DNA of 38,435 bases from contig JAJEAL010000072.1 in the NCBI GenBank assembly GCA_022822785.1, positions 1 through 38,435 of the forward strand. Direction: 5' to 3'. Positions 1,463 through 35,856 of the stretch are shown piece after piece (the first letter of the stretch is position 1; every line of letters begins with the position of its first letter). The translations under genes were made by a program, and so were the position numbers. The stretch comes from Candidatus Poribacteria bacterium (lineage in GTDB: Bacteria > Poribacteria > WGA-4E > PCPOR2b). The notes under the pieces were generated by a model, which saw nothing but the letters and a program-made list of their open reading frames with translations, searched no databases and had not been told where the DNA came from.

Positions 1463-2404
1463 TCACTTATTTTCCAAGGACGCGAGTAAAGATTTCACAT
1501 AAGCAACGGCCTTTGCTTCCAAATTTTCCCCCGGGTATCTCGGTTGACCTAAGTGTTCTGGATTTAGAATACCTTGATAATTAACATCTCGCAAAGCGGT
1601 GATTATGGCGGGAAGATTGACTCGGCCCTCGCCAAGGGGGCCCTCCCGTCCAGCGGGCCATCGATCGGAGTGATCTCGCAGCTGGCAGAAATGGATCTTA
1701 TCCGCAAACTCAACCACCAGCGCCGGCACATCGCCGCCTGGGATATCCATACCGGTACACAGCGTAACACCATTAGATGGACTTAGAACCGTGTTGATTA
1801 ATCGACGCAACTCCTTCCAAGTTCCTACCAAGAAAGGTCCGCCCCATCCTTCAGTCATATAACTCCCGTAATCTCCAATCCTTACGCCTCCTGCGACCGC
1901 TCGTTCCCGAACACCATCTTGTAGAAGTCGATGAAGACTATGGTTTCCAATGCCAATGCCGTTCGCTTCCGCGACCGGCATTAATTCACGGTAGATATCA
2001 ATCAGACCTTCCCAGCATGCCTCTTCTTCGTCCGGGTTTAGTGGCTTACCGATGTCAACATAGTGCAGCACCGATGTGATGCCAACTTCTCCCAAGATTT
2101 CGATCATCCGCAACATGGCATCGATACAGCGACGGTCACGGGTCAACAGGATGTCTGGATTTGTTGAACCATCACGCCAAGGGCGTGGGGGCCACTTCGC
2201 AAACCAATAGGTAGCACTCGGTACTTCAAGACCATTGTCCTCTAGTTTCCCCTTGAATTCCCGTAAGCAACCTGCATCCGGATATCCATTTTCTTTATAT
2301 CCGGGCAGGGACGCACAACTAATAAAAACGCGTTCGACGCCGAGTTGTTCGCAACGTTCAGCGGTCGCTTGTACATCAGTTGAGGCACCAATTCCGATTT
2401 TCAT
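1463..2404 (-). CDS. UxuA-like / xylose isomerase-like TIM-barrel protein
   Basis: The 313-residue protein reads as a single xylose-isomerase-like TIM barrel. It starts with the strand MKIGIGAS, has probable active-site strands with SVLHYVDIG (mid-protein), GIGNHSLHR and CTGMDIPGGD, and ends with KIHFCQLRDHSD and GILNPEHLGQPRYPGEN. The combination of an HFxxLRD strand and a C-terminal PEH motif recalls mannonate dehydratase (UxuA), but the protein is shorter than typical UxuA, so the substrate is uncertain. GAGGAG lies 7 nt before the ATG. The adjacent DUF6785-type membrane protein on the same strand upstream may be its functional partner. Possible roles are a sugar-acid dehydratase, isomerase or epimerase. 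Confidence 0.75.
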   Translation of the reverse strand: MKIGIGASTDVQATAERCEQLGVERVFISCASLPGYKENGYPDAGCLREFKGKLEDNGLEVPSATYWFAKWPPRPWRDGSTNPDILLTRDRRCIDAMLRMIEILGEVGITSVLHYVDIGKPLNPDEEEACWEGLIDIYRELMPVAEANGIGIGNHSLHRLLQDGVRERAVAGGVRIGDYGSYMTEGWGGPFLVGTWKELRRLINTVLSPSNGVTLCTGMDIPGGDVPALVVEFADKIHFCQLRDHSDRWPAGREGPLGEGRVNLPAIITALRDVNYQGILNPEHLGQPRYPGENLEAKAVAYVKSLLASLENK

Positions 2405-2590: not shown

Positions 2591-4531
2591 CTAGGGAAAA
2601 AATTGGTATAAGGGGGTATCGGTGAGAATACTCAGAATGCTCCAAAGGCTACCCGCCATGTAGTCTCCTAACGCAAGCCCTAAAAAGAATGGGATTGCAC
2701 GACGATATGCGTTGAGACCTCCATAGCGTAGGATAGCAGCCTTTAATCCCCAGGTAACAAATAAACAGCACCATAGATTCCACATTCCCCAACTACTGGC
2801 CATTACATAGCCAAGGGGATGGAGGGACCACCAGATAAAACGTGCTCGCAAAAACATTAGCAAGACAGTCACCCCAAGGCCACCTCCCATAAACGCAAGA
2901 GCGGGCTGATCCGGCTCTTGAGGAGAAGTCAGCCAACCTTCAAGTCGATTATAAAAATGCCCCCACTGTATGGTTGGCCCCATATAATATCCCGATTCGG
3001 CACCGTGCCGATAATAGTTATCCAATAAAAGCCAAAAGATTGTTATGGCTCCAATTAGCGTTGCGAGCAGAATTGCAACGGCTGTGTGACGCGGGTTAAT
3101 ATTCTGTCGCTCCGAGATTTTCAACGCTTCCAGTTGCTCTGGCATCGGATGAGTTCGATTGGCGCGACTGAAGTGCATGTACAGCGTGAAAACAGTGAGA
3201 GTGCTAGCACCAAGTCGGCGTGTCCCAAAGGCAGCTATAATTAGGTGATGAGGATCAATCTGAGCCCAGTGAAAATCGTGAACTAAGAAACCCAACTCGG
3301 CACGGAGTCGCGCGATCATTACCCCTAATAACAGATAAATTCCGAAAAATATAGGAACCACCCATAACGACATGCCAGCCCTGTAGGAAAAGACCATCAA
3401 GAACAGCATACCAAAGAAAATTCCTGCAAATGCAAGACGATAAGGCATCGCTTCACGTGTGTCTTTTAGCTGTGACGTAATACCTTTAGACCGGAACAGA
3501 TGGCGCATTAACCGTTTGAAGTGAGCCCTACCGGTCCAAAGGGCAAATCCTAACAGGCCCATGTAGACTCCGAACCCCTGTTCGCCAGCATAGGGAAACT
3601 TTGGGAGACTTTTCCAACCCATGATGCTGCCGCCTATCAGTTCGAGCTTGTAGACCCAGTAAAACACCCAGCATGAAAACAGTAGATCCAGCGGTATAAG
3701 AAAGCTGATACCTATTGCGAAAGGATAGAAAGAGATGCGTATACTTCCCATGGCGTTCCAAGGACGCTCGGTAAAATAGTGATGAACGTCTTGACGTTTG
3801 ACGGGGAGATACGGGAGAAAGGGATAGATTGAATTAAGCAGATTCATCGTACTGATCAGGACGGCGATACCAAAACCAATCCACATAAGTCGATTTTTAA
3901 AAAACCTTGATCTGGGATCTGTCATCTCCATGGGCAGTTGGATCAGTGGGTAGGTCAACCGCTCATGCTCAGTCCATTGGATCCTTAATAAAGTTATGAT
4001 GCACAACATCACAACCATCAATACAAAAAGAAACGAAATCCACGCAACAGCGGGGATAATCCATGCCCTAAAATTGTTATCAACATAGAGACTTGATTTT
4101 CCCTCATAGAAGCCGATTAGGGCCTCTTCGTCCCGTACGGTCAACCATTGCGGCAGATGCTTCCAAAACAGTTCCCGCCAGTCGTTTTCGGGGGTAGCAA
4201 ACCGAAATGGATGCCCCAAGATTGGAATCAGGATTTCCATGATATCGTAGGAGCAGAGACAGGTGATAATACATAACATAAAATAGACGGTAAAGAACTC
4301 TTGCTGGGAAAGAGTCAGCGTCGGGGAAATTTTGCCAAGCGCACGCCCAATTAGAAGAAGCCAAAAGAGGATGAAAATCACATTAAACAGCGGGTGTGTC
4401 CAGGTGGGGAATGTGTATCGAACCACTTCAAGCTCGATGATCCAATATACATTAATCGGCGTGAGCAACAGCGCAATGGTGAAGGATTTGAGCGTTAACC
4501 CGCTTTGGAAGGTGTCAAGCGTGTCTGTCAT
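2591..4531 (-). CDS. DUF6785/DUF6784-type polytopic membrane protein (copy 1)
   Basis: This 646-residue integral membrane protein has roughly a dozen or more hydrophobic segments (for example IALLLTPINVYWIIELEV near the N-terminus, then VIFILFWLLLIG, FFTVYFMLCIITCL and FLFVLMVVMLCIITLL). Its sequence is strongly similar along its whole length to the protein at 25512-27467, with shared blocks such as RFATPEN, HERLTYPLIQLP, FTERPWNAMGS, DNYYRHGAESGYYMGP and TPLYQFFP. I recognise it as the DUF6785/DUF6784 type found in Poribacteria- and Planctomycetes-like genomes; the overall look is that of a transporter, possibly OPT-like. No substrate is known to me. The UxuA-like gene downstream on the same strand is separated by 186 bp. 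An AAAGG motif lies about 9 nt before the start. Confidence 0.75.
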   Translation of the reverse strand: MTDTLDTFQSGLTLKSFTIALLLTPINVYWIIELEVVRYTFPTWTHPLFNVIFILFWLLLIGRALGKISPTLTLSQQEFFTVYFMLCIITCLCSYDIMEILIPILGHPFRFATPENDWRELFWKHLPQWLTVRDEEALIGFYEGKSSLYVDNNFRAWIIPAVAWISFLFVLMVVMLCIITLLRIQWTEHERLTYPLIQLPMEMTDPRSRFFKNRLMWIGFGIAVLISTMNLLNSIYPFLPYLPVKRQDVHHYFTERPWNAMGSIRISFYPFAIGISFLIPLDLLFSCWVFYWVYKLELIGGSIMGWKSLPKFPYAGEQGFGVYMGLLGFALWTGRAHFKRLMRHLFRSKGITSQLKDTREAMPYRLAFAGIFFGMLFLMVFSYRAGMSLWVVPIFFGIYLLLGVMIARLRAELGFLVHDFHWAQIDPHHLIIAAFGTRRLGASTLTVFTLYMHFSRANRTHPMPEQLEALKISERQNINPRHTAVAILLATLIGAITIFWLLLDNYYRHGAESGYYMGPTIQWGHFYNRLEGWLTSPQEPDQPALAFMGGGLGVTVLLMFLRARFIWWSLHPLGYVMASSWGMWNLWCCLFVTWGLKAAILRYGGLNAYRRAIPFFLGLALGDYMAGSLWSILSILTDTPLYQFFP

Positions 4532-16678: not shown

Positions 16679-17446
16679 TTAGATATACGCTCTCATCGTC
16701 CGAAGTGCGGTCACCACATCAGCATCAAAATCATCAAAACTGCACTCGCAGGAGACGCGGCCGTCGTAGCCAGCCCCTTCAAGCGCGGCGAAGAATTCCG
16801 CGTAATCAAAATCATCGTTGCCCGGATACGAGCGTTTGACTGGTTCAGCGATGTGGACATGCGCCAACCATTCCGCTCCATCAATGATATTCTGCATTGG
16901 CTCGTCCTCTTGCCAGACATGGTAGAGGTCTGCCAGCAACTGAATACCTTCTCGATTAACCCGCTGCGCCATCTCCAATCCGTCCGCAACCGTGCGGAGG
17001 ATATTCCCTTCGCGGTGACATATCGGCTCAATTACGATGGTAATATCGTTTGCCTCCGCGTGGTCGGCAGCCATGTCCAGAAACTCCGCAATCTGATCTA
17101 ATGCCCTCTCTTCCGAATAACCTTCCTCAAGATTGCGTGATCCGCTGCTTCCGTAGACGATAATCTCTCCCCCGATTGCTTTGGCTCGACAGCACGCGGT
17201 TTCGACGTACCGCGATAATCGTGGGAAATCTACCGCGTCTCCAACAACACGCAGGTTGCCGGGAATAAAACCGGCGTAAGCTTCTGGCTTCAATTTAGCC
17301 TGTGCCACCCGATTTTGAATTTTTTGAAATTCTGCATCGTTTGCTTCTGGAATGAGTGCATTCCCCACTCCTAATTCGATATAATCATAGCCAACCGCTG
17401 CGAGTCTGTCAATTTTTTCGAGCGGAGCGCAAACGCCAAATCGCAT
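16679..17446 (-). CDS. Sugar phosphate isomerase/epimerase-like TIM barrel
   Basis: The 255-residue protein is a xylose-isomerase-like TIM barrel, the usual size for hydroxypyruvate isomerase or ketose 3-epimerase relatives. Metal-site strands are visible: IVIEPICHREGN (Glu), LLADLYHVWQEDE (Asp and His), LAHVHIAEPVKR (His) and GRVSCECSFDDFD (Glu). The opening MRFGVCAPLEKIDRLAAVGY is typical. AGGAG lies 7 nt before the ATG. It lies downstream of the glycoside hydrolase-like gene and upstream of rsgA on the same strand. The substrate cannot be read from sequence. Confidence 0.85.
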   Translation of the reverse strand: MRFGVCAPLEKIDRLAAVGYDYIELGVGNALIPEANDAEFQKIQNRVAQAKLKPEAYAGFIPGNLRVVGDAVDFPRLSRYVETACCRAKAIGGEIIVYGSSGSRNLEEGYSEERALDQIAEFLDMAADHAEANDITIVIEPICHREGNILRTVADGLEMAQRVNREGIQLLADLYHVWQEDEPMQNIIDGAEWLAHVHIAEPVKRSYPGNDDFDYAEFFAALEGAGYDGRVSCECSFDDFDADVVTALRTMRAYI

Positions 17447-21979: not shown

Positions 21980-23041
21980 ATGGAAGAATGGAAGAAACTT
22001 GTTCGGGATACAGTCAACACACCTGAAAAACTTGCTGCTATCTTCGATGTCGATCTTGAAGAGATACAGCGTGTTCACGACGTATTTCCTATACGTATCA
22101 ATCCTTACTATTTGAGCCTAATCGAAGAGCCGGGAGACGCAATCTGGAAACAGGTCGTTCCAGACCCAAAAGAGTTGATTAGAACCGGTTTTGAGGAAGA
22201 CGATCCACTCAGTGAAGAAGATGATAGTCATGTGCCCAACGTTACACATCGTTATCCGGATCGCGTCCTATTTTATGTGAATTACATGTGTCCAATCTAC
22301 TGCCGATTTTGTACTCGAAAACGGAAGGTGGGAGATCCGGACTCCATTCCTGATAACAATATCGAGATGGGCTTGGATTATATTCGCAGCCACCCCGAAA
22401 TCCGTGACGTAATCATCTCCGGCGGGGATTCAATGATGCTGACGGATCGGAAGATCGATTATATCGTCGGCAGCCTCCGCGACATCGAGCATCTCGAAAT
22501 TATCCGCATCGGTTCGCGTGTCCCCGTCACCCTGCCACAACGTATCACGCCGGAGTTGTGTGCGATTCTCAGGCAATATCACCCTTTCTATATTAACACC
22601 CACTTCAATCACCCCCGCGAAGTTACGCCGGAAACTGAGAAGGCGTGTGGTATGTTAGTTGATGCCGGTATCCCCGTCGGCAATCAGGCTGTTTTGCTTA
22701 AAGGTGTCAACGACGATCCCGAAGTCATGGTTGATTTAATGAAGAAACTCCTCAAAATCCGCGTCAGACCCTACTATATCTATCAGGCAGATCTTGTCTA
22801 CGGGACGGATCATTTCCGCACATCGATCAAAACGGGACTGGAAATCGTTTCCGCTTTACGCGGACACATCTCTGGGCTCGGCGTGCCGCACTATGTGGTT
22901 GATGCCCCCGGTGGCGGCGGTAAAATCGCGCTCATCCCAGATCCGGTCGTGTCCTTTGATGACGAGGAGATTCAGTTGAAAAACTATGAGGGGAACACCT
23001 ACAGCTATCCAAGCACCTCCTTCTATGATGAGGATTGGTAG
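21980..23041 (+). CDS. KamA-family radical SAM aminomutase
   Basis: The 353-residue protein belongs to the lysine 2,3-aminomutase family, which uses an iron-sulfur cluster, SAM and PLP to move an amino group from C2 to C3. The CX3CX2C cluster motif is C104, C108 and C111 in CPIYCRFCTRKRKVG. SAM-binding VIISGGDSMML, substrate-region NTHFNHPREV and the PLP lysine K315 in DAPGGGGKIALIP are present. It is shorter than clostridial KamA (about 416), like many short clades. Candidates are lysine or glutamate 2,3-aminomutase, or an EpmB-like EF-P modifier; no epmA or efp is in the window. Beta-amino acids can serve as compatible solutes. Confidence 0.88.
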   Translation: MEEWKKLVRDTVNTPEKLAAIFDVDLEEIQRVHDVFPIRINPYYLSLIEEPGDAIWKQVVPDPKELIRTGFEEDDPLSEEDDSHVPNVTHRYPDRVLFYVNYMCPIYCRFCTRKRKVGDPDSIPDNNIEMGLDYIRSHPEIRDVIISGGDSMMLTDRKIDYIVGSLRDIEHLEIIRIGSRVPVTLPQRITPELCAILRQYHPFYINTHFNHPREVTPETEKACGMLVDAGIPVGNQAVLLKGVNDDPEVMVDLMKKLLKIRVRPYYIYQADLVYGTDHFRTSIKTGLEIVSALRGHISGLGVPHYVVDAPGGGGKIALIPDPVVSFDDEEIQLKNYEGNTYSYPSTSFYDEDW

Positions 23042-23132: not shown

Positions 23133-23501
23133 ATGGACAAAATCATTCTGAAAGGCATTCGATTCCACGGCTATCACGGCGTCGCGGAAGCGGAGCGTCA
23201 GCTTGGACAGAAGTATGAAATAGACCTTGAGCTGATGACTGACCTCACCGTTGCTGGTGAAACCGATGATCTCGCCCACACAATCGACTACGCCCAAGTC
23301 GTTCAACGGGTAATTGAAATTGGAACCCAGGGTTCATTTCAACTCTTTGAAGCACTCGCCGAAACAATTGCGGACGCAATCCTCGCCCAATTCCAAATCG
23401 AGGAAGTCCGAATTACTGTCAAGAAGTTATCCCCACCAATTGAACCAACACTCACCTATGCAGGCGCTGAGATCCATAGGAAGCGAAAATCAGATGAATA
23501 A
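23133..23501 (+). CDS. folB: Dihydroneopterin aldolase
   Basis: FolB converts dihydroneopterin to 6-hydroxymethyl-dihydropterin in folate synthesis. The 122-residue protein matches the family: IILKGIRFHGYHGVAEAERQ with the conserved Glu, TIDYAQVVQRV, FQLFEALAETIADAIL, and the catalytic Lys in ITVKKLSPPI. GAGGAA lies rather far (about 17 nt) upstream. It overlaps the next gene by 8 nt (ATGAATAA), so the two are translationally coupled although their functions appear unrelated. No folP, folK or folE is in the window. Confidence 0.93.
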   Translation: MDKIILKGIRFHGYHGVAEAERQLGQKYEIDLELMTDLTVAGETDDLAHTIDYAQVVQRVIEIGTQGSFQLFEALAETIADAILAQFQIEEVRITVKKLSPPIEPTLTYAGAEIHRKRKSDE

Positions 23502-24741
23502 ATCAACGGCTGTTTTTCATTCTATAATTTTCTTGTGCCTCCTTTTGATCACTAGTCCAGCCGTTATAGTAAGCGATACTGGTTCCTCGCCGCTGAATCC
23601 CAATGCAACTCGCATAGATCTATTTGAAGATCTGCATCCGGGCGTTCATATCTATCGGTACGATTGGCATGAGGAAGGGTGTGTCCTTTATGTGGCTGAA
23701 ATAGATCGTTCTTATACTGACCTCCATTTTGAAGCGGCAATCGCCAAAGATCAGATCTTAGGCAAGGAGAGCGTCAGATCTGTCGCCAATCGGCGTTCAC
23801 AACGTAGTGACCGCCGTGTTTTGGTCGCCATCAACGGTGGATTTGGTGTTCTCGGTGATATGAAGGGATACGGCGGCGCGTTGGAAAACTTGCATATCCA
23901 AGCCGGGGAGTTGATAACACAACCCGCATCTGATAAAGCGGCGTGTTTCGGCGTGACATCGGACGGTGATTTCTTGATTGGTCCTGTTGAAATGGAAGCT
24001 GCGGTGGCGGTTGGAACATATCGCTTACCGCTTGAGTGCATCAACCAGAGATTTCTCGATGGCTGCAAATCTATCCTCTATACTCCCCGCATGGGCGATT
24101 CGACACACACGAACCGTAAGCGGGCTTATGAGATAATCTTGACCGAACTCAGGCTGCCAATCATGGGCAGCTATGAGAGCGAGTTTACCGTGAATCGGTT
24201 TGGGAGAGGCGGCAACAGCCCGATTCCTGAAAATGGTGCGGTCATTTCCTTTCGATCGCGAATCGACAAGCAATTGGAAACAGAGCTAGGTAGTGGAAAA
24301 CGTGGAAAGATTGAAATCCAACTCAAACCGACTATTTGGAACAGTGCAATTCAAGCAATTGGCGGTCGAGTACGGCTTGTAAAGAATGGGCGAGTCAATG
24401 AAGCAATAGAGCAACACCACCACGCTCAGAAAAAACATACGCCCGGTAAACGGCAGCGCGACTTGGCGTTGAGCTATGAACCGCGCACCGCTCTGGGTTA
24501 CAACGACGAAAAGCTGATTTTAGTTGTGGCGGACGGTCGACAGATGGGTTATAGCACGGGTTTATCGCTTTATCGGCTCGCAAGCCTGCTGGTTGAACTC
24601 GGCGCGACAGAAGCTATCAATCTGGATGGCGGTTCATCAAGCACCTTCGTTGTCGATGGAGAGGTCGTGAATCGTCCGTCGGGACGGAGTGAACGCGATG
24701 TCCTCAACGCCGTTTTACTCACAGTTGATCAACCTCGGTAA
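23494..24741 (+). CDS. Phosphodiester glycosidase (NAGPA/DUF2233) family protein
   Basis: The 415-residue protein begins with a signal-like hydrophobic segment (FHSIIFLCLLLITSPAVIVS). The NAGPA domain signatures are HIYRYDWHEEGC near the N-terminus, VLVAINGGFGVLGDM, and the strongly diagnostic C-terminal block ALGYNDEKLILVVADGR, then LASLLVELGATEAINLDGGS, SSTF and RPSGRSERDV. The family removes sugars from phosphodiester-linked glycans; bacterial members are linked to cell-wall or exopolysaccharide metabolism. It is likely periplasmic. ATG 23494 overlaps the end of folB; a longer frame exists upstream, but the signal segment supports this start. Confidence 0.88.
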   Translation: MNKSTAVFHSIIFLCLLLITSPAVIVSDTGSSPLNPNATRIDLFEDLHPGVHIYRYDWHEEGCVLYVAEIDRSYTDLHFEAAIAKDQILGKESVRSVANRRSQRSDRRVLVAINGGFGVLGDMKGYGGALENLHIQAGELITQPASDKAACFGVTSDGDFLIGPVEMEAAVAVGTYRLPLECINQRFLDGCKSILYTPRMGDSTHTNRKRAYEIILTELRLPIMGSYESEFTVNRFGRGGNSPIPENGAVISFRSRIDKQLETELGSGKRGKIEIQLKPTIWNSAIQAIGGRVRLVKNGRVNEAIEQHHHAQKKHTPGKRQRDLALSYEPRTALGYNDEKLILVVADGRQMGYSTGLSLYRLASLLVELGATEAINLDGGSSSTFVVDGEVVNRPSGRSERDVLNAVLLTVDQPR

Positions 24742-25511: not shown

Positions 25512-27467
25512 ATGCAAAGCGATAGCCCAATAAACGATACGTCGAATACCTTCCAGAGTGGCTTAACGCTTAGGTCTTGTCTAATCGCGCTGTTGCTTAT
25601 GCCAATCACTGCGTATTGGCTGATCGAGCTGGAAGTTGTTCGCTATACGTTCCCAACCATTATCCATCCGTTTTCAAATGTTATTTTTGTCATTTTTTGG
25701 CTCCTGCTGATCCGGTATATACTAGTTAAAATTTCTCCAACGCTTGGGCTCTCGCAGCAAGAGCTCCTGACCATCTATGTCATGCTAGGTTTCGTATCCT
25801 GTCTCTGTTCGTATGACATGATGGAAATCTTGGTCCCAATTTTGGGGCACCCGTTTCGGTTCGCCACCCCCGAAAATGGTTGGCGAGAACTGCTTTTCAA
25901 GCACCTTCCCGAATGGCTTACCGTCCGGGACGAAAAAGCCCTAACACCATTCTATAAAGGAGGCTCAACGCTTTACGAAGAGGGTTATTTTAAGGCATGG
26001 CTCATCCCCGGCGTTGCTTGGATTTCATTCCTATTTGCTCTGATGATTGTGATGTTAGGGCTCACTACCTTATTGCGGAGACAGTGGACGGAACACGAAC
26101 GGTTGACGTATCCGTTGATCCAACTCCCGCTGGAGATGACCAATCCCCAAACTAGCTTCTTCAAAAACAGATTGATGTGGCTTGGTTTCGGCATCGCTGC
26201 TTTAATCAGTATCGAAAATTTGCTCAATTCAATCTATCCCGCTTTCCCGTACATACCTGTCAAGCGTCAGAACATCCATCAGTATTTCACCGAGCGTCCT
26301 TGGAACGCCATGGGAAGCACAAGAATCTCATTCTATCCTTTTGTCATCGGTATCAGCTTCCTCATGCCCCTTGATCTCCTGCTTTCATGCTGGGTATTCT
26401 ACTGGGTGTACAAAGTCGAGTTGATGGTTGGAAACATTATGGGTTGGCAGGGGCTGCCACGCTTTCCATATATCGCTGAACAGAGTTTTGGTGTGTATAT
26501 TGGGTTGTTCATTGTTGCATTGTGGACAGGAAGAGCATATTTTACTAGGTTGGGACGCCATCTGTTTACTGGTGCGACATCTGCGGCGCACCTAGATGAC
26601 TCTCATGAACCGCTACCGTATCGTTTGGCATTTGCGTGCGTGGTATTTGGGACGATCTTCTTAACAGTTTTTTCCTACAAGGCAGGGATGCCGCTATGGG
26701 TCATTCCACTTTTCTTTGGGATTTATTTTTTATTGGGGACAATGATTGCGCGGCTGCGTGCAGAAATGGGATTTTTGTGCCACGATTTTCAAAACGGCGT
26801 CGATCCGCACCATATGATTATCGACGCGTTTGGGACGCGCCGGTTAGGTGCCGGTGCTCTCACTGTATTTACGTTGTACATGCACTTCACTTTTGCAAAC
26901 CGAACCAACCTAATGCCGCAGCAGCTGGAAGCGTTCAAGATTTCCGAACGGCGGAATATTAATCCTCGCCACATCGCCGTCGCTATTGTAATCGCAACAT
27001 TCATTGGGGCAATCGCAACATACTGGCTCTTGTTGGATAACTATTATCGACACGGTGCCGAGTCGGGGTACTACATGGGACCGACCACGCAACGGGGTTG
27101 GGTCTATCACCGCCTCGAAAGCTGGCTGAACTCCCCTCAAGAGCGGGATGAGCCTGCGCTTGCCTTCATGGGCGGTGGACTTGGGGTAGCGGTGGTATTA
27201 ATGTTTCTAAGGGGACGCTTCCTCTGGTGGTCGCTTCATCCCCTCGGTTATGCGATGGCGGATAGCTGGGGGATGTACAATTTATGGAGTTGCTTATTTG
27301 TTGCTTGGGCGTGCAAGGCAATCGTGCTCCGCTACGGAGGTCTCAACGGGTATCGTCGCGCCATTCCCTGCTTTTTGGGCCTGGCACTGGGGGATTATCT
27401 GTTGAGCAATATCTGGGGAATTTTGAGCATTCTGACCAATACACCCTTATATCAGTTTTTCCCCTAG
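25512..27467 (+). CDS. DUF6785/DUF6784-type polytopic membrane protein (copy 2)
   Basis: This 651-residue integral membrane protein is the full-length paralogue of the one at 2591-4531. The two align from FQSGLTLRS at the N-terminus to TPLYQFFP at the C-terminus with few gaps. Hydrophobic segments alternate with conserved polar loops (CLCSYDMMEILVPILGHP, EHERLTYPLIQLPLEM, MIARLRAEMGFLCHDF, RYGGLNGYRRAIPCFLGLAL). Transport is a reasonable guess; the substrate is unknown. It is followed on the same strand by a TIM-barrel epimerase and a sulfatase-fold enzyme, suggesting a small catabolic operon. ATG 25512 is chosen over TTG 25506; no strong ribosome site is visible. Confidence 0.75.
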   Translation: MQSDSPINDTSNTFQSGLTLRSCLIALLLMPITAYWLIELEVVRYTFPTIIHPFSNVIFVIFWLLLIRYILVKISPTLGLSQQELLTIYVMLGFVSCLCSYDMMEILVPILGHPFRFATPENGWRELLFKHLPEWLTVRDEKALTPFYKGGSTLYEEGYFKAWLIPGVAWISFLFALMIVMLGLTTLLRRQWTEHERLTYPLIQLPLEMTNPQTSFFKNRLMWLGFGIAALISIENLLNSIYPAFPYIPVKRQNIHQYFTERPWNAMGSTRISFYPFVIGISFLMPLDLLLSCWVFYWVYKVELMVGNIMGWQGLPRFPYIAEQSFGVYIGLFIVALWTGRAYFTRLGRHLFTGATSAAHLDDSHEPLPYRLAFACVVFGTIFLTVFSYKAGMPLWVIPLFFGIYFLLGTMIARLRAEMGFLCHDFQNGVDPHHMIIDAFGTRRLGAGALTVFTLYMHFTFANRTNLMPQQLEAFKISERRNINPRHIAVAIVIATFIGAIATYWLLLDNYYRHGAESGYYMGPTTQRGWVYHRLESWLNSPQERDEPALAFMGGGLGVAVVLMFLRGRFLWWSLHPLGYAMADSWGMYNLWSCLFVAWACKAIVLRYGGLNGYRRAIPCFLGLALGDYLLSNIWGILSILTNTPLYQFFP

Positions 27468-27512
27468 TTCATCTATCCTTCTCTCACCTCCCACAAAAAC
27501 GAAAGTTTGACT

Positions 27513-28334
27513 ATGAAACTCAGTTGTATACCTGTTTCATTCTACGAAGATATTTTTAGCGGCAAAAAATCAGTTATTGATTGGATCCATTTCGCTGCTG
27601 GTCTAGGACTGGAGGGGGTTGACTTCAGCGTAAAATTCTTTCCAACCAGAGACAAAGATACCCTTAACAGCATTACCGAGGAAGGACAAAAGATTGGCAT
27701 TGAGTTTTGTGCATTGGCGTGTTATCCTGATTTTACCCATCCCGACGTCGATCAGCGTGCACAGGAGATAGCACAGATGAAAGCAGATGTGCAACTGACA
27801 GCGGCACTTGGTGCCAAATATGCGCGGGTAACTGCTGGACAGAATCACCCCGGCACCGACCGGGCACAGGGAATTGGTTGGGCAGTTGATGGGCTTCGCC
27901 AAGTCCTTGATGAGGCAGATAGGTTGGGAGTGACCTTAGTCTACGAAAATCATACCAAGGGTGCGCCCTGGCAATATTGGGACTTCTCGCAGCCGTGCGA
28001 GATTTTCTTAGAAATCTTAAACAGCCTTGAAGATACTTCTCTCAAGGTCTGTTTTGACACCGCAAATCCTCTAGTTCTCCGCGAAGATCCGGTAGCCTTA
28101 TTGGAAGCCGTAATAGATAGGGTAGAGGTCGTTCATGTGTTTGACATACGCACCCCGGGCGAATTTGAGACAGTCCTTGTTGGCACAGGGGCGTCCCCTA
28201 TCAAGCCAATTTTCTCCATCTTGAAGCACAACGGTTTTGACGGTTGGGTGAGTATTGAGGAGGCGAGCCGTACAGGAGACGCCGGATTTGAAAAAGCTGT
28301 TCCTTTCGTCCGTCGTGCATGGAAGGAGGCTTAA
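27513..28334 (+). CDS. Sugar phosphate isomerase/epimerase-like TIM barrel
   Basis: The 273-residue protein is a xylose-isomerase-like TIM barrel. Active-site-like strands are LGAKYARVTAGQN, VTLVYENHTKGAPW (Glu, Asn, His), LKVCFDTANPLV (Asp), VEVVHVFDIR (His) and GWVSIEEAS (Glu), the usual metal-binding set. Relatives include IolE/IolI, hydroxypyruvate isomerase and ketose 3-epimerases. It starts 45 bp after the DUF6785-type gene and is followed 10 bp later by the sulfatase-fold gene, so the three are probably co-transcribed. The substrate is probably a sugar or sugar acid made available by its neighbours. Confidence 0.85.
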   Translation: MKLSCIPVSFYEDIFSGKKSVIDWIHFAAGLGLEGVDFSVKFFPTRDKDTLNSITEEGQKIGIEFCALACYPDFTHPDVDQRAQEIAQMKADVQLTAALGAKYARVTAGQNHPGTDRAQGIGWAVDGLRQVLDEADRLGVTLVYENHTKGAPWQYWDFSQPCEIFLEILNSLEDTSLKVCFDTANPLVLREDPVALLEAVIDRVEVVHVFDIRTPGEFETVLVGTGASPIKPIFSILKHNGFDGWVSIEEASRTGDAGFEKAVPFVRRAWKEA

Positions 28335-28344
28335 CTACCATATC

Positions 28345-29784
28345 ATGAACGTTATTTGTATCTGCTTAGACACATTTCGATCTGACATTATCGGACCGGG
28401 CAAAAAATATAGTCACACGCAAACACCCAACCTAGACATGTTTGCAGCAGAAAGTATCCAGTTTACACGGGCATTTGGGGAAGGTCAACCTACGCTTCAG
28501 ATACGTCGTGGACTGTTTACTGGTATGAGGAGCTTCCCGTGGCGATACAACTTTGACCGGCGGGGACACTGGCATCATGCATCCGGTTGGCATAAAATTC
28601 CTCCGGAACAAGATACAATCGCTGAAGTCCTGCTGGAGCGAGGCTATCTGACAGCCCTAATCGCTGATACATATCACATGTTCAAACCCACAATGAACTT
28701 CTCACGTGGGTTTGCCCATTTGGATTTTGTTAGGGGCCAGGAATCGGATAACTGGCGCAGCGGCGATCCACGGCTAGTTGAAGAACAACTGAGGCGGCAT
28801 GTCAGGGAACCGATTAACTGGCACCGGCACGCGGGGCTCGTCAATTACCTACTCAATCAGCGGGGTAGACGTTCTGAAGATGACTACAGTTGTGCGCGTG
28901 TGTTCCGAGCTGCTTCTGAGTGGCTTGACGACAACCATACGGTGGGACCTTTTTTCCTATGGATAGACAGCTTCGATCCCCATGAACCGTGGGATCCACC
29001 ACCCAGCTATGCGGACGAATATCTCCCCGGCTATTCGGGTAAGGACTTTATTACCCCCGGCGCAGCGTATGAAACGGGTAATCCAACAGAGGACGAGCTC
29101 CGTCGAGTTGAAGCACTCTATCTCGGTGAAGTTACCTTTGTTGATAAGTGTATTGGGCGGCTGCTCTCTAAAATAGAGGAGCTAAATTTACGTGATGACA
29201 CAATCGTGGTAATTCTTTCGGACCACGGGACCCAACTTCGCGATCAAGGACGTTTTGGAAAAAGTCCCGAACAGCTGCATCCATTTAACACTCAGTTGAA
29301 TCTGTTGATTCGTCATCCAGAGCGACAGCAAGGTAAGGAGGTTGATGCGTTTGTTCAAAACCATGACCTGATGCCAACCTTGCTCCATCAGCTTGGGATT
29401 CCGTGCGATTGGACGGATGGGAAGGATTTCTGGCAACTGGTGACCGGCGAGCAGGCATCTATTCGCGATCGGATTATCATCGGTTGGGCAGGTTTTGCAA
29501 CCGGCAACGCACGTGGTCGTGTCAGCGTGAGGGATGAACGGTGGAATTTTTGCACTGCTGTCGGTTACGATGACCCAGATGGCGATGAGTTATTCGACTT
29601 GACTGATGACCTCGCAGAACTCCACAATGTAGCCGGCAATCATCCGGAAATAGTCAAAACTTGCCGGACGGAGGTAGAGGGGTTGCTACGACAACCTCTG
29701 CCCGGCCGCATGATTGAGGTATGTGATGCAGCAACGGCACCGATGACACAATGGTTGCAGCGTAAGCTGCAGCAGTTTAAATGA
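28345..29784 (+). CDS. Sulfatase-fold hydrolase with Thr at the formylglycine position
   Basis: The 479-residue protein has the alkaline phosphatase/sulfatase fold: ICICLDTFRSD (metal Asp9), DSFDPHEPWDPPPSY, VVILSDHGTQLRDQGRFGKS (metal Asp-His). The sulfatase signature CxPSRxxxLTG is replaced by TLQIRRGLFTG, so T50 sits where Cys is converted to formylglycine, while R54 is kept. Thr is the nucleophile in related phosphodiesterases and phosphomutases, so a phosphoester substrate is more likely than a sulfate ester. No signal peptide is visible, so it is probably cytoplasmic. GGAAGGAGG ends about 15 nt before the ATG. It follows the epimerase by 10 bp. Confidence 0.85.
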   Translation: MNVICICLDTFRSDIIGPGKKYSHTQTPNLDMFAAESIQFTRAFGEGQPTLQIRRGLFTGMRSFPWRYNFDRRGHWHHASGWHKIPPEQDTIAEVLLERGYLTALIADTYHMFKPTMNFSRGFAHLDFVRGQESDNWRSGDPRLVEEQLRRHVREPINWHRHAGLVNYLLNQRGRRSEDDYSCARVFRAASEWLDDNHTVGPFFLWIDSFDPHEPWDPPPSYADEYLPGYSGKDFITPGAAYETGNPTEDELRRVEALYLGEVTFVDKCIGRLLSKIEELNLRDDTIVVILSDHGTQLRDQGRFGKSPEQLHPFNTQLNLLIRHPERQQGKEVDAFVQNHDLMPTLLHQLGIPCDWTDGKDFWQLVTGEQASIRDRIIIGWAGFATGNARGRVSVRDERWNFCTAVGYDDPDGDELFDLTDDLAELHNVAGNHPEIVKTCRTEVEGLLRQPLPGRMIEVCDAATAPMTQWLQRKLQQFK

Positions 29785-29804: not shown

Positions 29805-31226
29805 ATGGCTAAAACACTCCAATCAAGTCTCCTCACAGAATCAAATATGGCGTTGTTTGTTGACTACTACGAGCTCACGATGGGTAAGGCAGATTTTGAC
29901 AGTGGGAACAACGCAATTGGCACTGAGAACTACTTTGTCCGTTTTATCCCGCAGGGCGAGTATCTGATTGCAGCAGGATTGGAACAGGTTATCCACTATA
30001 TCTTGAACCTACGTTTTACCGATGCAGATCTTAAATGGTTGAAGGAGAGTAAGACGACGCCGGATATGAGTGATGATTTCCTTGATTATCTACGTCACTT
30101 CAAATTCGATGGTGACGTGTATGCGGTACCCGAAGGGACCCCCGTCTTTGCAAACGAACCATTAATCAATGTGACAGGCAGATCCATTGATATTCAGATC
30201 TTCGAGACCTACCTACTCAACGTGATGAATTTCCAAACATTAATCGCCACGAAAACAGCGCGAATCGTTCATGCAGCGGGCGGGCGAACCTGCTTTGATT
30301 TCGGAGCGCGGCGGGCACATGGACGCGATGCCGGTATTTTAGCTGCGCGGGCATCATTCATCGGAGGGGCTGCCGGCACCTCCCTTGTTGTTGCTGGACA
30401 GTACTTCAACATCCCTTACGTTGGAACAGTTGCGCACAAGTTCATCATGGATCGTCCGTCTGAACTTGCGGCGTTTCGAGACTATGCCAATTCATTCCCC
30501 CATAACACCCTCCTGTTGATTGATACTTACGATACTATTGAGGGGGCAAAAAACGCTTGCATCGTGGGCAAAGAGATGAAGGCGAGAGGCGAACAGCTGA
30601 GAGGTGTTCGGCTTGACAGTGGCGATCTACTCGCATTGAGCAAGGCAGTGCGAGAAATCTTCGATGAGGTAGGGTTGACTGACGTGCAAATCTTTGCTAG
30701 TAATGACCTTGATGAATTTCAGATTAATCAACTGCTAGCCGCGGGTGCCCCAATTGATGGATTTGGTGTCGGCACCCGTTTGGTGACGGGAGCGAATTTC
30801 AACCCGCTGACCGGTGAAGGGGGGGCATCAGCGTTGCCCGGCGTTTATAAGCATGTAGAGCGGATCGAGGGTGACAAGGTGACTGTCACCATGAAGGTAA
30901 GTGAGGATGCCGGCAAATCGACCTTGCCTAGCAAAAAACAGCTCTATCGTCAATACGATGCCCACGGACACTATGTTAAGGATGTGGTCAGCCTCTGGGA
31001 TGAAGATATAGAAAATAGTGAGCCGCTGCTTGTCCCGGTAGTTGACAAGGGTGAGTTAGTTTATTCGTTCCCTGACTTGGCTGCGATGCAGGAAAAAACC
31101 AAGACTGAGTTGGCGAGGCTACCTGCACCGTGTAAAAGATTGACAGATGCGGAAGAATATCCTGTCGTTTTGAGTCGAGGGTTGGAGAATTTATTGGAGC
31201 AATTGAAGCAAAATAGGCAACATTGA
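29805..31226 (+). CDS. pncB: Nicotinate phosphoribosyltransferase
   Basis: This enzyme makes nicotinate mononucleotide from nicotinate and PRPP in NAD salvage. The 473-residue protein shows the family opening LLTESNMALFVDYYELTMGK, the loop FDFGARRAHGRDAG with the catalytic His, MDRPSELAAFRDYANSFP, LLLIDTYDTIEGAKNA, VRLDSGDLLALSKAVR and GFGVGTRLVTG. The gene lies 20 bp after the sulfatase-fold gene on the same strand and may share its transcript. Several in-frame starts exist near the N-terminus (ATG 29805 or 29847); 29805 is taken without a strong ribosome site. Confidence 0.94.
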   Translation: MAKTLQSSLLTESNMALFVDYYELTMGKADFDSGNNAIGTENYFVRFIPQGEYLIAAGLEQVIHYILNLRFTDADLKWLKESKTTPDMSDDFLDYLRHFKFDGDVYAVPEGTPVFANEPLINVTGRSIDIQIFETYLLNVMNFQTLIATKTARIVHAAGGRTCFDFGARRAHGRDAGILAARASFIGGAAGTSLVVAGQYFNIPYVGTVAHKFIMDRPSELAAFRDYANSFPHNTLLLIDTYDTIEGAKNACIVGKEMKARGEQLRGVRLDSGDLLALSKAVREIFDEVGLTDVQIFASNDLDEFQINQLLAAGAPIDGFGVGTRLVTGANFNPLTGEGGASALPGVYKHVERIEGDKVTVTMKVSEDAGKSTLPSKKQLYRQYDAHGHYVKDVVSLWDEDIENSEPLLVPVVDKGELVYSFPDLAAMQEKTKTELARLPAPCKRLTDAEEYPVVLSRGLENLLEQLKQNRQH

Positions 31227-33617: not shown

Positions 33618-34835
33618 ATGTTTCCATTTCGCCGGATAGCCGGGGTCGGTGATGTTTACGTGCCGATCCAATATCGAGAACTTGCCACAGAGGACGCTTC
33701 GTGGAAGTTATTCACAGACAGCGAACTGAGACAATTCAATCGAATTTTCACCCACCTACGTCGCGGTGGCGTGGCAATCCTGTCGGGCGACTGGAAGCAA
33801 GTGACGGACGTAATGGAGTATATCGAACGGAAAAAAAATGAGTTGGTTGTTTCCCCCCACGGGGGTAGGCGAAACAGGAAAAGATCGGGTCAGGACAAAG
33901 ATAGCTGGCAACGCCGAACGGGAGGTGGCAGACGTAAATCCGACGCAGGACTAGCGGATGTAAATCTCACACAAGAAAGGGAGCGGGCACTGTCACGTTT
34001 GATGTGCTGGGCGGATCCAGCTGGCACCTTGCAAGCTACCCCGCCGCCACATCTACCGTATCTCCTTGAGTGGGTCGGCGAAGGTCAGGGCGTAAATGAA
34101 GGGCGACCATTTCTAGTTCCCATTGTCACTATTCAGAAAATTCAGAGCGCACTCGCAGAGACCTATCCGATCCATGCACTCGGAGGGTCGCTAGTTGCCT
34201 CCGACAACGTGCTTCCACCCCATTCTCAAGAAACGATTGAACTGTTTCAGCGGGGATTGCAAAGTGTTAAACCACATCTGCCGTGCGGTGCAACAGTGCT
34301 CGATATGGGGTGTGGGTGCGGGTGTCTTACGCTGCTCGCTGCGAAGGAAGTAGGGGATTTGGGTGTAAAAATTTACGCATCGGATCTGCTGCCTGAAGCG
34401 GTTGCGACAACCCGGCTCAACCTCTCATGTTCTACCGATGTCGTTAGTAATCTATCGCAAGTTCGCGTCATGTCAGCAGGTGACCTTTTTCAGCCAGTGT
34501 CAGCACTTCGTTTCGATCTGATTATATTCAACGCGCCGTGGGTGGTTGCACGGGCACGAAGTCGAGCGGAAATCGCCATCCACGATGAAAGACAAAACAC
34601 AATTCGCCGTTTTTTCGATAATCTCCCCAGTTACCTCAACCCAAGGGCACGCCTGCTTATCGGGTACGCAGACGCCTCTGGAACAAAAGCCATCACTTGC
34701 CTAGAAGCGATGATTCAGGAGGCGCGCTTAACAATTTTGAACCGATTCAAGGCGCGGGTGGCAACTCATAGAAGAAATCGGAAATGGGAAAATATCACAG
34801 TTTATGAACTGCTTAACAAAACACTAGATGCCTAA
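33618..34835 (+). CDS. Class I SAM-dependent methyltransferase (PrmC-like motif)
   Basis: The 405-residue protein has a Rossmann methyltransferase domain in its second half: motif I VLDMGCGCGCLTLLA (about residues 228-242), an acidic end of strand 2 in IYASDLLPEA, and a motif IV of the form FNAPW (about residue 304), which recalls the N-P-P-Y of N6/N5-glutamine methyltransferases but is altered. The N-terminal half is unfamiliar and contains a very basic segment at about residues 80-110 (GGRRNRKRSGQDKDSWQRR). The target is unknown; protein glutamine or a small molecule are options. Its last 12 nt overlap the convergent TIM-barrel gene. Confidence 0.8.
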   Translation: MFPFRRIAGVGDVYVPIQYRELATEDASWKLFTDSELRQFNRIFTHLRRGGVAILSGDWKQVTDVMEYIERKKNELVVSPHGGRRNRKRSGQDKDSWQRRTGGGRRKSDAGLADVNLTQERERALSRLMCWADPAGTLQATPPPHLPYLLEWVGEGQGVNEGRPFLVPIVTIQKIQSALAETYPIHALGGSLVASDNVLPPHSQETIELFQRGLQSVKPHLPCGATVLDMGCGCGCLTLLAAKEVGDLGVKIYASDLLPEAVATTRLNLSCSTDVVSNLSQVRVMSAGDLFQPVSALRFDLIIFNAPWVVARARSRAEIAIHDERQNTIRRFFDNLPSYLNPRARLLIGYADASGTKAITCLEAMIQEARLTILNRFKARVATHRRNRKWENITVYELLNKTLDA

Positions 34836-35612
34836 ACCTTGCCGGATAAACTCTCGACTCGCTCTAGCACAATCCACTGGGGTTTTCTCTTCCGTTGGTC
34901 CGTTCTGCTCCACTGTTATCCACCCTGAATAACGCTTTTCCTTCAGCAGCCGAAACACGCTCTCATAGTCACATCGACCGGCGCCGACCTCTGTTCTCAA
35001 GTCAAAATCTTCATGCCAGTCCTTGAATTCGAGAAAATCGATCCGATCCCAGTTGCGTTCGAGAAAGATGGCTGCGCGCTGATCGACCGGATACCCAATG
35101 AAATCCTTTGTTGCATGACCAACATCCACGAAACCGAAGAATTTAGTGGGGGCCGTTCTGTGTAACAGTTCCTCAGTTTCCTCCAAGGTTTCGCCGGTGT
35201 GGTGGGTGTGGTTGTGAAAGCAGGCATGGACATCGTAGGTCAGCGCAATCTCGCCGATCTGATTCAGTAGGTCAGCGATTTCGTTCATGTCTGCGCCCTT
35301 CTGCGCCAAGCCGCCTATCGTCACCAAATGTTGTGCGCCGAGCTGCTGCATAATTTCACAGACACGGTGAACCCTATCAAAGTCACGATCGATGATGAGA
35401 TCAACGCTTACCAATGGAAGCCCACGATCCGTTATCCGCTCGACAAAGTCGGTCTCCTCAATAAGTCGAACTAGCACCCTCTCAAATGTAGCAACGCCCG
35501 CATAGCCGGCCGCCGAGACATCATCAATCCAAGTGGGCATCGTTTCGTTGGGTAGATTCCCACCCCACATAAGGCTCATACAGGCAAGTTTAATGTCAAC
35601 TGCTTCGGTCAT
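34824..35612 (-). CDS. Sugar phosphate isomerase/epimerase-like TIM barrel
   Basis: The 262-residue protein is another xylose-isomerase-like TIM barrel. Metal-site-like strands: VHACFHNHTHHTGE (His-rich), FFGFVDVGHATKDF (Asp and His), IDFLEFKDWHEDF (Lys, Asp, His) and GWITVEQNGPTEE (Glu). This pattern resembles 2-keto-myo-inositol dehydratase (IolE) and related inositol enzymes. The start at 35612 is set by TAGGAGC; the frame extends further upstream, but there it runs through the remains of a sialidase gene in another frame. It converges on the methyltransferase gene with a 12-nt overlap. Confidence 0.85.
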   Translation of the reverse strand: MTEAVDIKLACMSLMWGGNLPNETMPTWIDDVSAAGYAGVATFERVLVRLIEETDFVERITDRGLPLVSVDLIIDRDFDRVHRVCEIMQQLGAQHLVTIGGLAQKGADMNEIADLLNQIGEIALTYDVHACFHNHTHHTGETLEETEELLHRTAPTKFFGFVDVGHATKDFIGYPVDQRAAIFLERNWDRIDFLEFKDWHEDFDLRTEVGAGRCDYESVFRLLKEKRYSGWITVEQNGPTEEKTPVDCARASREFIRQGLGI

Positions 35613-35646
35613 ATTCGCTCCTATTGGTGTGGCTGTTAGGTTGTAA

Positions 35647-35856
35647 CTAGTTAAATTGCCAAGTGTGTCCTTCCTCCTCCTAACGGCAGGCACGGACATC
35701 GAATAATGGATGACTGTGGTGAGAATATCCCACGTAAGGTGAACGATGAAATAGAACTAACAAATCGCCACCGGGTGTGCGTACCACATTGGGAGGAGCA
35801 CCGTACCAGCCTTCCTCACGGTAGATCGTAAGATGGTCTATAACGCGCTAACTCAT
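35647..35856 (-). pseudogene. Remnant of the N-terminus of a sialidase/BNR-repeat protein
   Basis: From ATG 35856, with AAAGGAGAG upstream, the minus strand reads M-S-TAG-R, then VIDHLTIYREEGWYGAPPNV, VRTPGGDLLVLFHRSPYVGY and, after FDVRACR, a second TAG followed by EEEGHTW. This is the start of an exo-alpha-sialidase-like protein, and the last part is an Asp-box (SxDxGxTW) with TAG at the Ser position. A further TAG ends it at 35647. Three amber codons and the loss of the rest of the gene mark it as decayed. It lies just upstream of a TIM-barrel gene, whose leader overlaps it. Confidence 0.7.

Follow-up and report, generated by a model that had tools for sequence, protein, structure and literature searches.

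Membrane proteins of the DUF6785/DUF6784 family in Poribacteria are predicted transporters of a divergent OPT superfamily branch

Barley Yellow Stripe 1 (HvYS1), a member of the OPT superfamily (PF03169), is composed of a YS core and a scaffold, each built of inverted repeats, and an elevator-like, proton-coupled mechanism has been proposed for it (PMC9691689). No significant structural homologue of HvYS1 was found in a DALI search (PMC9691689). The characterised OPT proteins discussed in two reports, HvYS1 together with yeast and plant OPTs, are importers (PMC9691689, PMC12687453). The Pfam entries PF20581 (DUF6785) and PF20580 (DUF6784) state no function, the NCBIfam collection has no model for the family, and a literature search found no paper naming either domain; a link to OPT may already be recorded in the current InterPro/Pfam clan notes. 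Compared with HvYS1, the DUF6785 proteins described here have the same predicted overall fold, match its structure over their full length, correspond to it in three sequence blocks and show significant profile similarity; the identity between the two is 13–14%.

Poribacteria live in abundance as symbionts of sponges, and almost all knowledge of them comes from uncultured genomes. The window analysed here, a stretch of 38,435 nucleotides, is an entire contig of a 5.6-Mb genome, and almost all close relatives of it found in the public collection belong to Poribacteria. As the first-pass annotation had described, it encodes two paralogous DUF6785 membrane proteins that each lie beside a xylose-isomerase-like TIM-barrel gene. 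DUF6785-A (2591–4531, minus strand, 646 amino acids) matches DUF6785 with E 2.3e-160 and DUF6784 with E 2.1e-35, and DUF6785-B (25512–27467, plus strand, 651 amino acids), a polytopic membrane protein, matches them with E 1.1e-156 and 2.3e-33. In both proteins the matches to PF20581 and PF20580 are full-length and far above the curated cut-offs, and the two are 74% identical when aligned.

The TIM barrel of locus A, TIM A (1463–2404, minus strand), is UxuA-like (AP_endonuc_2 E 1.6e-18, UxuA E 7.2e-13) and follows DUF6785-A co-directionally after 186 bp. Its nearest PDB chain is the mannonate dehydratase 1tz9 (E 1.4e-9). TIM B (27513–28334, plus strand, AP_endonuc_2 E 7.6e-35) starts 45 bp downstream of DUF6785-B, also on the same strand. 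It can be assigned to the superfamily of IolE, ribulose-5-P 3-epimerase and hydroxypyruvate isomerase and is nearer to IolE/UlaE-type enzymes; its nearest PDB chains score only 22–26 bits, and no NCBIfam equivalog comes near its cut-off. For neither barrel does any equivalog model attain its cut-off. Both share the superfamily of the AP_endonuc_2, IolE and UlaE-like TIM barrels and the UxuA mannonate dehydratase, and no significant alignment was obtained between them, so that on sequence they are assigned to different subfamilies. As TIM A and TIM B lack close homology, an origin of the two loci by duplication of a whole transporter–TIM block was rejected.

At locus B, TIM B is followed by a hydrolase of the alkaline-phosphatase/sulfatase fold (28345–29784, plus strand; Sulfatase E 6.4e-36, with SGSH_C), whose ATG at 28345 lies 10 bp past the TIM B stop codon. 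The start codons of TIM B, at 27513, and of the hydrolase, at 28345, were refined in this analysis. The hydrolase resembles alkaline-phosphatase superfamily sulfatases and phosphonate monoester hydrolases in fold and overall sequence. The formylglycine-sulfatase motif C/S-x-P-S-R is absent from it: T-L-Q-I-R replaces C-x-P-S-R, with threonine at the formylglycine position, which agrees with the Thr-type sulfatase-fold enzyme noted at this place before. A classic sulfatase mechanism is unlikely because the threonine takes the place of the formylglycine cysteine. A nicotinate phosphoribosyltransferase gene (29805–31226, plus strand; NAPRTase equivalog above cut-off) begins 20 bp after the hydrolase and is possibly on the same transcript. 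All four genes of locus B share one strand, with 45, 10 and 20 bp between them. Upstream of the locus, an NAGPA-type phosphodiester glycosidase is encoded at 23314–24741 and a short form of a lysine 2,3-aminomutase-like radical SAM protein, below the equivalog cut-offs, at 21980–23041. In the closed genome of a congener (G022) the former is found in the same place (79% identical), and the latter is 93% identical.

The structure of DUF6785-B was predicted with AlphaFold from an alignment of 52 relatives (pLDDT 88.7, pTM 0.91) and searched with Foldseek against 350,542 PDB chains. Exactly two chains matched with E below 0.001, and both are HvYS1 (7wsr and 7wst). The best match, 7wsr_A, has E 1.9e-9, probability 1.00 and TM-scores of 0.66/0.71, and the third hit has E 0.05, probability 0.18 and a TM-score of 0.11. 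A second AlphaFold model, built for a family member from Armatimonadetes with a 36-sequence alignment (pLDDT 85.2), again gave HvYS1 as the sole confident match (E 4.5e-9, probability 1.00), the next hit being at E 0.038 and probability 0.13. Over both models the TM-scores against HvYS1 are 0.64–0.71, and the match spans the whole chain. No match was obtained in a library of viral structures. By homology, DUF6785-A is predicted to have the same OPT/Yellow Stripe fold as DUF6785-B. The comparison with known transporters proposed in the first-pass annotation has thus singled out one OPT/YSL protein in the PDB.

A relation to OPT was also found at the level of sequence profiles. When the DUF6785 profile was searched against PDB sequences, no hit was obtained. 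The OPT profile contained seven sequences only, six annotated plasmid OPT genes and HvYS1 as printed from the PDB. The plasmid genes had been collected with a ZmYS1 bait sequence (1190-bit match to 7wsr), which is not in the profile; a yeast OPT1 sequence (556 bits to PF03169) reached neither the PDB nor the plasmid OPTs. When 99 DUF6785 proteins were aligned with these seven by hhalign, the match had a probability of 79 and P 1.5e-5 over 446 collinear columns that run to the C terminus. Reversed-profile controls gave P 0.26–0.38, and unrelated protein families gave P 0.013–0.43 against OPT and 0.12–0.44 against DUF6785, the lowest value, 0.013, coming from one MFS sequence aligned over 85 columns. 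The similarity between DUF6785 and OPT is above that of the decoys, which supports membership of the OPT superfamily at the sequence level.

Three blocks correspond in this alignment: LRRQW..E..LTYP of DUF6785 with LIPLRQVLVVDYKLVYP of OPT (LRRQWTEHERLTYP with IPLRQVLVVDYKLVYP), LEAFK with MQDFK (EAFK with QDFK), and GLALGD with ALICGD. Because the profile match and the blocks run collinearly to the C terminus, DUF6784 is best read as the C-terminal, last transmembrane part of the same transporter. Residues 120–167 of DUF6785-B, with the conserved ENxW...LPxWL...FYxG, are unaligned to OPT. Conservation at residues 619–628 is inflated for the 80 loci from the collection, since this motif served as the search pattern. 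In a genome search with the Pfam OPT HMM, DUF6785-type genes were above the cut-off in 10 of 59 Poribacteria, including the genome of the window, whose gene scored 37 bits against a PF03169 cut-off of 25.8. This hit was not reported by ordinary hmmscan, and plain hmmscan of the same proteins gave no OPT match even at E = 10; the HMM signal therefore depends on the scoring route and carries little weight.

The aspartates implicated in proton coupling of HvYS1 are not conserved in the profile alignment of the 99 DUF6785 proteins. In DUF6785 the Asp446 column holds Gly420, the Asp490 column residue 470 (His or Gln in most proteins) and the Asp494 column residue 474 (Gly or Ala in most). A glutamate, Glu473, is present in 98 of the 99 proteins one position from the Asp494 column, where an alignment error of one residue is possible. 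The coupling of DUF6785 may therefore differ from that of HvYS1.

The family occurs in all 85 Poribacteria genomes searched, with 8–86 first-look candidates per genome (median about 30), and in none of 14 well-known control genomes. Full scoring of three genomes retained 17, 23 and 33 copies out of 20, 25 and 39 candidates. The neighbourhoods of these genes vary with lineage. Subfamily members at 60–66% identity outside the genus adjoin Aldolase_II, PGA_cap and Lon genes, and other lineages adjoin PhyH with trpD/trpC, an MR_MLE enolase-like gene, FGE-sulfatase/FG-GAP genes, or UppS with a P-type ATPase. Some of these conserved neighbours are catabolic and some are housekeeping genes; the latter (UppS, RsgA, TrpD/TrpC, Lon) are uninformative on nutrient uptake. 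Each lineage has its own conserved neighbourhood, and no universal partner was found.

The earlier reading of the window had taken the two pairs as a recurring module, and neighbours were therefore counted in this genome, in G022 and in a third genome (G084), with genes placed at random along the genome for comparison. AP_endonuc_2 TIM barrels number 76, 72 and 55 in the three genomes. Of the 17 DUF6785 genes in this genome, 2 lie 3 kb or less from a TIM barrel and 15 do not; 1.5 are expected, and the observed number is close to this because the genome holds 76 such barrels. Within 1 kb the count is again 2 of 17, against 0.61 expected (P = 0.12), so the pairing does not clearly recur above chance here; the corresponding counts are 3 of 23 against 0.85 in G022 and 2 of 33 against 0.95 in G084. 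Pooling the three genomes gives 7 against 2.4 expected (P 0.012) with shared orthologues included, and 5 against 2.4 (P ~ 0.10) without the two G022 orthologues of the window cases. A 2- to 3-fold excess of TIM barrels beside DUF6785 is thus present, but it is not significant after orthologues are collapsed. Sulfatases lie within 1.5 kb of DUF6785 three times in this genome (0.31 expected, P 0.0035), and no such enrichment was seen in G022 or G084. Among the genes that adjoin DUF6785, 3 of 54 are TIM barrels, a family absent from those listed for at least 2 of the 112 distal control genes. PhyH is the commonest adjoining family (5 of 54) and was rejected as a common partner because it is also common at a distance (5 of 112). 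It is known to be abundant in Poribacteria, which these counts fit. The TIM barrels are a large expansion in their own right, with four in the window (1463–2404, 16679–17446, 27513–28334 and 34824–35699).

Both DUF6785–TIM pairs are kept in G022 at 88–93% identity. The DUF6785-A orthologue is 93% identical there, and at locus B the order including the hydrolase and the NAPRTase is preserved at 87–91% identity, TIM B (89%) and the hydrolase (87%) being collinear. The pairs were recovered within the genus only. In a related contig (L022), a TIM A homologue lies near a DUF6785 gene with one gene between.

Three other readings were weighed against these data. That DUF6785 and a TIM barrel, with or without the hydrolase, form a general recurring unit of uptake and catabolism draws on the two closely spaced, co-directional pairs, their conservation in the congener, the pooled excess before orthologue removal and the TIM barrels among adjoining genes. 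The abundance of TIM barrels in these genomes, the 15 copies that lack one nearby, the loss of significance without orthologues, the different subfamilies of TIM A and TIM B and the other neighbours of related loci outside the genus make it very improbable. It is slightly less likely than not that locus B alone is a putative genus-specific operon of DUF6785, TIM barrel and hydrolase, perhaps with the NAPRTase, that would import one phospho- or sulfo-ester compound, the pairing at locus A being unrelated. Its short gaps on one strand and its order in G022 suggest a possible true operon at the level of the genus rather than a general module; no obvious connection ties the NAPRTase to the other genes, and compact gene packing may be enough to explain the gaps. 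Such an operon is compatible with the explanation preferred below. An OPT-like fold could also serve an exporter, a flippase or a receptor, as the UppS, PGA_cap (capsule) or TatC neighbours of some lineages and the unconserved aspartates might suggest. We consider this unlikely, since DUF6785 retains the core motifs and most of the length and the characterised OPT proteins discussed above are importers.

The explanation that we prefer, with high confidence, is that DUF6785 and DUF6784 constitute one predicted family of transporters, which forms a divergent OPT superfamily branch and has expanded in Poribacteria. The two AlphaFold models that match HvYS1 and the profile homology to OPT strongly support a transporter function, as the first-pass annotation had suggested, and it is the module half of that proposal that finds no support in the genomes tested. 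Since the proteins are predicted to fold like Yellow Stripe 1, they are probably nutrient importers. By analogy with HvYS1, DUF6785 would most likely work as a single-polypeptide elevator-type secondary transporter and would most likely take up small polar organic compounds. The expansion, which has brought the median to about 30 candidate loci per genome, may have been accompanied by diversification of substrates, as is suggested by the different genes beside different lineages. In this genus, two close copies have TIM neighbours and one of them also the Thr-type, putatively phospho- or sulfo-ester-cleaving hydrolase; the likeliest local role could be to import a compound resembling a sugar or a sugar acid, which would then be hydrolysed and isomerised or epimerised. 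More tentatively, and leaning slightly against it, we consider that DUF6785/DUF6784 may be an unrecognised major branch of the OPT fold with coupling unlike that of plant and fungal OPTs, serving substrate-diversified uptake across the phylum and perhaps ranking as a dominant class among the importers of organic nutrients in Poribacteria. What had been a domain of unknown function, with some 30 candidates per genome, now gains a concrete, testable role as an OPT-fold transporter and a solved homologue, HvYS1, to be modelled against. It also offers an expanded bacterial family in which changes of substrate and ion coupling in the OPT fold can be studied.

Two or three DUF6785 genes lie side by side in arrays at two other loci (L024, 5750–11945; L010, 5945–10135) and in G022 (C1:1775861–1781585), which suggests that the expansion arose partly by local duplication. 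Two tandem membrane proteins of 664 and 665 amino acids are encoded on the minus strand of another contig of this genome (L132, C58 of the genome; 4215–6209 and 6260–8257). They have no Pfam match, and the one examined has no NCBIfam match. Their profiles show weak similarity to OPT (P 0.0015) and to DUF6785 (P 0.002), with reversed controls at 0.23–0.24. This type of protein is present in 20 of 21 genomes searched, and it is possible that it represents a further OPT-like family.
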